Assembly: GCA_016868785.1 (NCBI GenBank)
Contig: VGFS01000016.1
Coordinates: forward strand, 1-43,760
Length of the DNA stretch: 43,760 nucleotides
Source: Bacteroidota bacterium
GTDB taxonomy: Bacteria; Bacteroidota; Bacteroidia; NS11-12g; UBA955
Direction: 5' to 3'
Of the stretch, positions 39,869-40,865 are shown piece by piece. The notes beneath the pieces are model-generated. The model was given only the letters and a program-made list of their open reading frames with translations. It was not told where the DNA came from and made no database searches. A program made the position numbers and the translations under genes. Each line of letters starts with the position of its first letter. Position 1 is the first letter of the stretch.

Positions 39869-40102
39869 TTAAATAGAATGGTAAAGTTTAGAATCGCTCT
39901 CTTCTAAGATAATTGACAAGGTAGTAGGAGCAGGACTAATCATTAATACATCAAGGTCTGATGTGGTCTCATATAACTCATTCAAATAGTTCGACCAATC
40001 CGGGTTCTCAGCGATGTTTGCTTGGATATAATCTACAGTTTCAACTTCCGCTTCACCATAAAAATACAACAATAAATCTGACTGGGATAGTGGTTTTACC
40101 AT
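39869..40102 (-). CDS. Small acidic protein next to ECF sigma factor
   Basis: 77 residues from the ATG at 40102 (MVKPLSQSDLLLYFYGEAE); the frame is open 11 codons further. The N-terminal pattern of hydrophobic and acidic residues looks like the first helices of anti-sigma-type proteins (LLLYFYGE, then IQANIAENPDW), without zinc ligands. No membrane segment. It lies 44 nt after the sigma gene and has its own TATGTTTG box 17 nt upstream. The role as a sigma partner is inference. Confidence 0.55.
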   Translation of the reverse strand: MVKPLSQSDLLLYFYGEAEVETVDYIQANIAENPDWSNYLNELYETTSDLDVLMISPAPTTLSIILEESDSKLYHSI

Positions 40103-40119: not shown

Positions 40120-40127
40120 CAAACATA
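40120..40127 (-). promoter_or_regulatory. TAnnTTTG -7 box before small acidic gene
   Basis: Minus strand TATGTTTG, exact consensus, 17 nt before the ATG at 40102, in the gap after the sigma factor stop. It would give the small gene its own transcript. Confidence 0.35.
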
Positions 40128-40146
40128 TAACGCACCCAAAATCAGA

Positions 40147-40728
40147 TTATTTTACCCGCACTACACTTTTTTGCATCTTTTTTCTCAGATTGAGAATTGC
40201 GTAATGCATCCGTCCAATACAAGTATTGATGTTTGTTTCCGTCAGTGCGGCAATTTCCTTGAAACTCAAATCGGCGTATTGGCGTAAAATCAATACCTCG
40301 CGTTGATCCTCTGGTAGTTCGCGAATCCATTGTTTGAGAATTTCGATTTCATCTTTAGCCACCCGTTGATTCTCCTGGCTGCTAACACTGATTCCTAAGG
40401 CATCAAATACATCACGACCCTCAGTATCCACAACCACAGGCATGCGCTTGCGAGAGCGAATAGAATCGATACTCATGTTTCTCGCAATTCGTAAAGCCCA
40501 TGGCAAAAACTTGTCTTCGTGGTTGTACTTGCCATTTTGAATACTATGTATGACCTTGATAAAGGTCTCCTGGAAAATATCTTCAGCCAAATAACGGTCG
40601 CCAACAAGCAAATAAATGCTCGACAGAATACGAGTTCTGTGGCGCTTTAGCAAAGTTTCGAATGCTGCATTGTTACCGTCGATGTAACGCTTAATCAGCA
40701 CGCCGTCTGAGATCAATGGTGTAGTCAT
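40147..40728 (-). CDS. ECF RNA polymerase sigma factor
   Basis: 193 residues. Region 2 has DRYLAEDIFQETFIKVIHSI and FLPWALRIARNMSIDSIRSRKR; region 4 has LPEDQREVLILRQYADLSFKEIAALTETNINTCIGRMHYAI. It directs RNA polymerase to a special set of promoters. The start is supported by the strong Shine-Dalgarno AAGGAGGG 4 nt upstream, rare in this phylum. A small acidic gene follows. No transmembrane anti-sigma factor is adjacent. Confidence 0.93.
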   Translation of the reverse strand: MTTPLISDGVLIKRYIDGNNAAFETLLKRHRTRILSSIYLLVGDRYLAEDIFQETFIKVIHSIQNGKYNHEDKFLPWALRIARNMSIDSIRSRKRMPVVVDTEGRDVFDALGISVSSQENQRVAKDEIEILKQWIRELPEDQREVLILRQYADLSFKEIAALTETNINTCIGRMHYAILNLRKKMQKSVVRVK

Positions 40729-40732
40729 AATA

Positions 40733-40740
40733 CCCTCCTT
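40733..40740 (-). promoter_or_regulatory. Strong Shine-Dalgarno of the ECF sigma gene
   Basis: Minus strand AAGGAGGG, 4 nt before the ATG at 40728. At the other starts I checked in this window no comparable SD is found. Confidence 0.75.
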
Positions 40741-40804
40741 GCAGGTTAAAATGTGGTTTTAATAAAGCAAGTTTTTTGTTGAGTATTTTTTGACTTATAG
40801 GCGT

Positions 40805-40865
40805 TTTGGTTAGTATTCCAAACGTGAATGAATACAATAAATTTGGTAAATGCAAATTTTTACCA
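40805..40865. repeat. Two inverted repeats with 8-nt spacers upstream of the sigma gene
   Basis: TTTGG-N8-CCAAA at 40805-40822 and TGGTAAA-N8-TTTACCA at 40844-40865, with centres about 41 bp apart. They lie between fmt and the sigma gene. The second could be a weak fmt terminator or an operator; the equal spacers suggest regulator sites, which is inference. Confidence 0.35.

Follow-up and report, generated by a model that had tools for sequence, protein, structure and literature searches.

An ECF sigma factor gene in the Bacteroidia genome studied here is preceded by a strong Shine-Dalgarno (SD) sequence, which the first-pass annotation described as standing out in otherwise SD-less surroundings. 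What is such a site doing in front of this gene? We addressed this question using the window, a stretch of 43,760 nucleotides that makes up the entire contig C16 of a 2.07-Mb genome in 79 contigs, together with the genomes and leaders of related bacteria. Our analysis indicates that the SD is probably one part of a regulatory RNA that acts in cis from the 5′ leader of the sigma factor gene, with a putative switchable hairpin at the start region.

A strong SD precedes a near-universal ECF sigma factor gene

The gene (40147..40728, minus strand) is a single-copy ORF of 193 aa. It encodes a protein with sigma-70 regions 2 and 4 but no region 3, the domain composition of an ECF sigma factor. The protein matches Pfam Sigma70_r2 and Sigma70_r4_2 and passes the NCBIfam cut-off for the sigma70-ECF superfamily; a PDB search returned general ECF homologues and nothing more specific. 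Among the Bacteroidia sampled, the gene is single copy and near-universal, with orthologues in 226 of 246 genomes, in 76 of 79 genomes of the host order, and in 55 of the 58 relatives examined.

The SD, AAGGAGGG (40740..40733, minus strand), is followed by TATT and then by the ATG at 40728..40726, leaving a gap of 4 nt between the SD and the start codon. The 3′ end of the genome's own 16S rRNA (L091) reads ...GGACCACCTCCTTTCT, the canonical anti-SD, and the sigma leader can form a 7-bp helix with it (AAGGAGG; about −13.5 kcal/mol by stacking alone). The strong SD 4 nt before the sigma ATG, as originally annotated, is therefore real.

To place this site in its genomic context, we scored SD strength at 842 ATG starts, called with a simple home-made gene caller in a 1.2-Mb sample (58% of the genome). 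There were 21 helices at −9 kcal/mol or below in the SD window, compared with 39 in a mock window placed farther 5′, and no G-rich or purine peak was found at positions −12 to −6 before starts in the sampled genome. Because strong helices are fewer than in the mock window and no purine peak precedes the starts, we regard the host genome as SD-depleted, in agreement with reports for Bacteroidia. Only a few genes carry equally strong sites: the sigma start and five others (C15:3680, C23:19601, C22:24555, C6:2585, and C3:17291) reach −13 kcal/mol or stronger. The depletion of SD-like sites at other starts thus agrees with the annotation; with five other sampled starts scoring as well, the sigma SD is exceptional rather than unique.

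One of the five, C23:19601, has AAGGAGGTAACGC-ATG in front of a gene that, judged by eye, resembles 4-hydroxy-2-oxovalerate aldolase. In an SD-less genome, a strong site here might indicate that the gene was acquired by horizontal transfer.

The SD is conserved in the host family

The existence of five equally strong starts is consistent with a chance SD without any role, as is the genome-wide count of AAGGAGG-N3-8-ATG, which occurs 18 times compared with 16 for the reversed control. Comparison of leaders among relatives, which the first-pass annotation had proposed as a check, argues strongly against this explanation. All 14 sigma leaders fetched from the same genus contain the GGAGG core, and most genera of the host family have it too, with differing flanks (AAGGGAGGAG, AAAGGAGGU, AAGGAGGUAG, and others). 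Weaker sites (AGGU, GAGGU) are found in a few genera of the host family and in most of the sister family. Across the host order, 50 of 81 sigma leaders have an SD helix of −10 kcal/mol or stronger; in other orders of Bacteroidia, a strong SD occurs only sporadically before the sigma gene. In addition, among 258 orthologous start pairs between the host and a second species of the same genus, the sigma leader is the sole intergenic case with a strong SD in both species. A second conserved pair, at C3:4099, was set aside as an apparently mis-called internal start of a murI-like gene. The sequence conservation appears to largely refute a chance origin, which we consider highly improbable. Of the two outcomes that the annotation had named as refuting its view, absence of the SD from orthologues and many equal SDs in the genome, neither was observed.

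The leader is predicted to form a stem over the start region

Comparison of sigma leaders showed an element upstream of the SD that consists of an invariant box, CGCCUAUA, followed by a segment complementary to the nucleotides directly 5′ of the AUG. In the window, the invariant box (Box A) is CGCCTATA (40796..40803, minus strand). Its CGCCTAT is nearly invariant in the host family, where the leader alignment shows it followed by TAC(T/C), and the box is recognizable class-wide. Box A lies about 75 nt 5′ of the ATG in the host leader and 58–104 nt in relatives. In its general form, the element has two parts, Box A (GC[CT]TAT[AC]...) and, 14–17 nt on (TAT to TAC), Box B ((T)CTAC). Both are recognizable in Sphingobacteriales, Chitinophagales, Saprospiraceae, Cytophagales, and other groups.

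Box B (UAC) is contained in the 5′ arm of the stem, AAUACUC (40781..40787, minus strand), which pairs with the 3′ arm GGGUAUU (40729..40735, minus strand). The 3′ arm overlaps the SD and abuts the ATG. The predicted fold also contains an inner helix between CUUGC (40767..40771, minus strand) and GCAAG (40738..40742, minus strand), which covers the first part of the SD in the host genus. Together, the paired GGGUAUU and GCAAG account for most of the SD. The fold of the host leader has a predicted energy of −15.1 kcal/mol (z = −2.65), and Box A is unpaired in the predicted folds.

A tentative housekeeping promoter lies at 40827..40856 on the minus strand (TTTG followed by a degenerate TAnnTTTG-like −7 box), identified by inspection using the consensus from PMC9723704. 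The leader element would then fall inside the 5′ UTR. Such housekeeping-type promoters are clearer in the leaders of relatives than in the host leader.

Leader comparison shows pairing preserved by compensatory change

The sequences of the two arms change together between species. The pair AAUACUC/GGGUAUU of the host genome is AAUACUC/GAGUAUU in close relatives, and other leaders have UACCU/AGGUA, AAUUACC/GGUAAUU, CUCCUU/AAGGAG, AAUACCUCU/AGAGGUAUU, AAUACCUAU/AUAGGUAUU, or AAGUACUUC/GAAGUACUU, with ACUUCUAC/GUAGAAGU in another order. A MAFFT alignment of the leaders analyzed with RNAalifold gave no consensus fold because the loops cannot be aligned and the pairing register shifts. We therefore replaced plain alignment with an alignment-free test and with covariance models.

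In the alignment-free permutation test, each 5′ segment was paired with the start-proximal segment of its own leader and with those of other species. Pairing was better with the own partner than with swapped partners, both in the host order (z = −8.4) and in other orders (z = −5.7), with P at the floor of 2 × 10⁻⁵; an earlier version of the test had yielded 0 of 100,000 permutations. A control region at −40 to −20 gave z = +1.8 in the host order and some signal in other orders as well (z = −3.1). Leaders of the Cytophagales type keep the boxes, close to the ATG, and form no clear stem (z = −1.5).

A covariance model built from 10 leaders of the sister family (R1) matched the correct place in the other family of the host order and in other orders. 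In the resulting alignments, 92% of cells were paired and both-side changes occurred in eight of nine pairs. Cells with changes on both sides numbered 40, compared with 10 in shuffles, and 74 compared with 22.8 in a larger set. These alignments were fitted to the covariance model and lean towards it, which is why the alignment-free test matters. A second model (R2), trained without the host leader, recovered the whole leader element at 40720..40803 (minus strand; 36.4 bits, E = 0.0076); up to E = 10, the 1.2 Mb of host sequence contained no other match. Across 246 Bacteroidia genomes, 25 of its 28 matches lay directly 5′ of the sigma orthologue, at a sensitivity of about one-tenth of genomes detected at E = 0.5. 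The leader had no Rfam match above the gathering score.

The stem does not depend on a strong SD. In the host order, the mean arm duplex is −8.4 kcal/mol for strong-SD and weak-SD leaders alike, and leaders whose SD is weak or lost, such as L114, L390, and L231, retain the stem. Since weak-SD leaders have an equally strong stem, the deep constraint lies on the structure and not on the strength of the SD. As in SD-sequestering leaders, the ribosome-binding region is paired and the structure is kept by compensatory change. Judging from these sequence comparisons, the pairing is preserved by such change across the host order and several other orders of Bacteroidia, and a cis-acting RNA that hides the sigma start region is the most likely explanation.

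Could the two boxes instead be a DNA element, such as an autoregulated ECF promoter or an operator, with the pairing at the start region secondary? The boxes are kept class-wide at nearly constant spacing, and Box A lies outside the stem. However, their spacing is about 5 bp shorter than that of the usual ECF −35/−10 pair, and compensatory changes act at the RNA level, so that a DNA element would leave the pairing unexplained. The DNA reading is most plausible for the Cytophagales, where Box B runs into CTACGTTA (ACGTTA), similar to the −10 box (CGT) of ECF promoters in flavobacteria (PMC9723704). Yet relatives have housekeeping-type promoters upstream, and the boxes were found only at the sigma gene: no convincing two-box motif preceded other genes in the 1.2 Mb scanned, in contrast to what an autoregulated ECF regulon would entail. 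We consider a DNA element unlikely.

The RNA stem could in principle also account for the SD itself. The 5′ arm is pyrimidine-rich (consensus ACCUCUAC), so its partner is purine-rich and resembles an SD, and this likeness could be a by-product of arm pairing that involves no pairing with 16S rRNA. Several lineages fit this description, combining a 5′ arm CCUCU with a 3′ arm AGAGG or AGGAGG. In the host family, however, the 5′ arms are AAUACUC, UACCU, or CUCCUU, yet AAGGAGG recurs 3–9 nt from the ATG and reaches beyond what the stem needs, in a genome in which SDs are otherwise depleted. This excess over the stem and the workable distance to the ATG suggest that the host family probably makes use of the SD once the stem opens. 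There is only a small chance that the SD is a by-product alone.

The bS21 link finds limited support

The first-pass annotation had also proposed that, through its strong SD, the sigma mRNA could be translated by ribosomes deficient in bS21, tying a transcription program to ribosome state; such ribosomes, or others with an exposed anti-SD, would then translate it preferentially. Several of our results are compatible with this proposal. The SD is real and strong, and is kept in the host family while the sequence around it turns over; the genome is SD-depleted and its 16S rRNA has a canonical anti-SD. The host bS21 keeps Tyr54, whose mutation in F. johnsoniae exposes the anti-SD (PMC9976891); the host ribosomes thus probably sequester their anti-SD. 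Moreover, bS21-depleted ribosomes of F. johnsoniae favor strong SDs (PMC9976891).

Other results speak against bS21 as the main explanation. The annotation took its model from the autoregulation of rpsU through a strong SD, but the host rpsU is itself SD-less, and the rpsU leaders read across the host order contained no GGAGG core, although AAGGA-type sites occurred in a few of them. The bS21 feedback loop is therefore not visible here. In F. johnsoniae, regulated rpsU forms helices of 9–13 bp and is usually the sole gene with an exceptional SD (PMC9976891). Against a range of 9–13 bp and below about −13 kcal/mol, the sigma helix is too short at 7 bp and borderline in energy; it lies inside the range reported for rpsR and is mostly weaker than that for rpsU (PMC9976891). 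Sister lineages keep the stem but carry AGGU-type sites only, and nothing ties ribosome composition to the sigma gene. Finally, the annotation had overlooked the conserved stem in which the SD is buried.

In the host genus, it is rpsR that has an SD, with AGGAGG 5 nt from the ATG (L277–L300). On the basis of these leaders, the SD in the host lineage is carried by the gene for bS18 (rpsR) and not by that for bS21 (rpsU). We read bS18 in relatives because both rpsR and rpsF are absent from the host assembly (G000), which is rated 100% complete. Since genomes of the same genus have rpsR, this absence is presumably an assembly gap.

Given that weak-SD leaders retain the stem and that rpsU is SD-less, preference by bS21-lacking ribosomes is not the best reading of the sigma leader, and we judge it rather improbable. 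The two ideas are compatible, since the SD could help the ribosome to invade the stem.

A possible switch and its relation to known leaders

The preferred explanation, a leader RNA with a hairpin at the start region, suggests how the switch might work. In the folded state, the start region would be closed to the 30S subunit, and a stem over approximately −1 to −10 would keep sigma factor levels low until it is opened. Consistent with this idea, translation in F. johnsoniae is lowered when the start region is structured (PMC6847099). The stem could be opened by a signal that acts on Box A or on the 5′ arm; this signal might be a protein, a small RNA, temperature, or a stem-invading ribosome, such as one with a free anti-SD. 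The natural choice for a sensor site is Box A, which is invariant and stays unpaired in the predicted folds. Once the stem is open, the exposed AAGGAGGG would support strong initiation in the host family, whereas other lineages would use their usual SD-less initiation. A more specific version, in which a class-wide riboregulator is closed to normal Bacteroidia ribosomes, whose anti-SD is hidden, and in the host family is opened only by ribosomes with an exposed one, seems improbable to us. If it were true, translation of the sigma factor from such a ribosome-opened hairpin would act as a sensor of ribosome composition.

Hairpins that sequester the SD are known from the leaders of other sigma factor mRNAs, such as the rpoH RNA thermometer and the rpoS leader. 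The leader described here similarly places a sigma factor under 5′ pairing with the ribosome-binding region, but it differs in sequence and architecture, in its invariant Box A, in a stem that abuts the AUG, and in belonging to a phylum that normally lacks SDs. It shares with the rpsU (bS21) leader of Bacteroidota (McNutt et al. 2023, PMC9976891) a rare strong SD where ribosomes hide their anti-SD. In contrast to that leader, it precedes an ECF sigma gene, forms a shorter helix, and buries its SD in a conserved hairpin, in a lineage whose rpsU is SD-less. Flavo-1 and other cis-regulatory RNAs in Rfam are likewise structured Bacteroidota RNAs, whereas this leader has no Rfam counterpart. No leader RNA of a sigma gene in Bacteroidetes turned up in our literature searches.

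In a class known for ignoring SDs, a near-universal ECF sigma factor of the Bacteroidia thus seems to be under the control of a conserved leader RNA without an Rfam family, and the hairpin-embedded SD seems to belong to an undescribed on/off switch for this factor. If confirmed, the leader would add a regulated SD exception beyond rpsU and rpsR, a second natural mRNA with which to ask when Bacteroidia ribosomes use their anti-SD, and a handle on what a widely kept, uncharacterized sigma factor responds to.

The type IX secretion ECF sigma factor SigP of P. gingivalis (PGN_0274/PG0162; Kadowaki et al. 2016, PMC4800418) resembles the host sigma factor in its length of 193 aa and in class. In a porX mutant, SigP protein disappears although 40% of its mRNA is still present, and the authors suggest protein instability (PMC4800418). 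Since the two proteins were compared by length alone, this parallel is only a lead.

Additional features of the leaders and the locus

In about 20 of 30 Cytophagales-type leaders (L163–L237), Box A reads ATG-NNN-TAA/TAG (M-X-stop) with a varying middle codon, and once ATG-TAA. Leaders with ATC in place of ATG mostly lack the stop. From its sequence, this form of Box A is possibly a minimal upstream ORF. Sphingobacteriales leaders (L165, L175–L205, L217, L223, L224, and others) have a conserved SD-like AGGAGA a few nucleotides 5′ of Box A.

Downstream of the sigma gene, a CGTTATA box (40126..40132, minus strand) is similar to the −10 box (CGT) that ECF promoters of flavobacteria are reported to have (PMC9723704). 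It lies 30 nt 5′ of a small gene of 77 aa (39869..40102, minus strand), and apart from this gene a scan for conserved CGTT boxes gave no indication of a regulon. The small gene is conserved beside the sigma gene in the host family, and its orthologues too have a CGTT box in front; its product is weakly anti-sigma-like and is perhaps a minimal anti-sigma factor. Its orthologues in several genera keep the C-terminus PTSVxIIxEHSHDSHTEAV.
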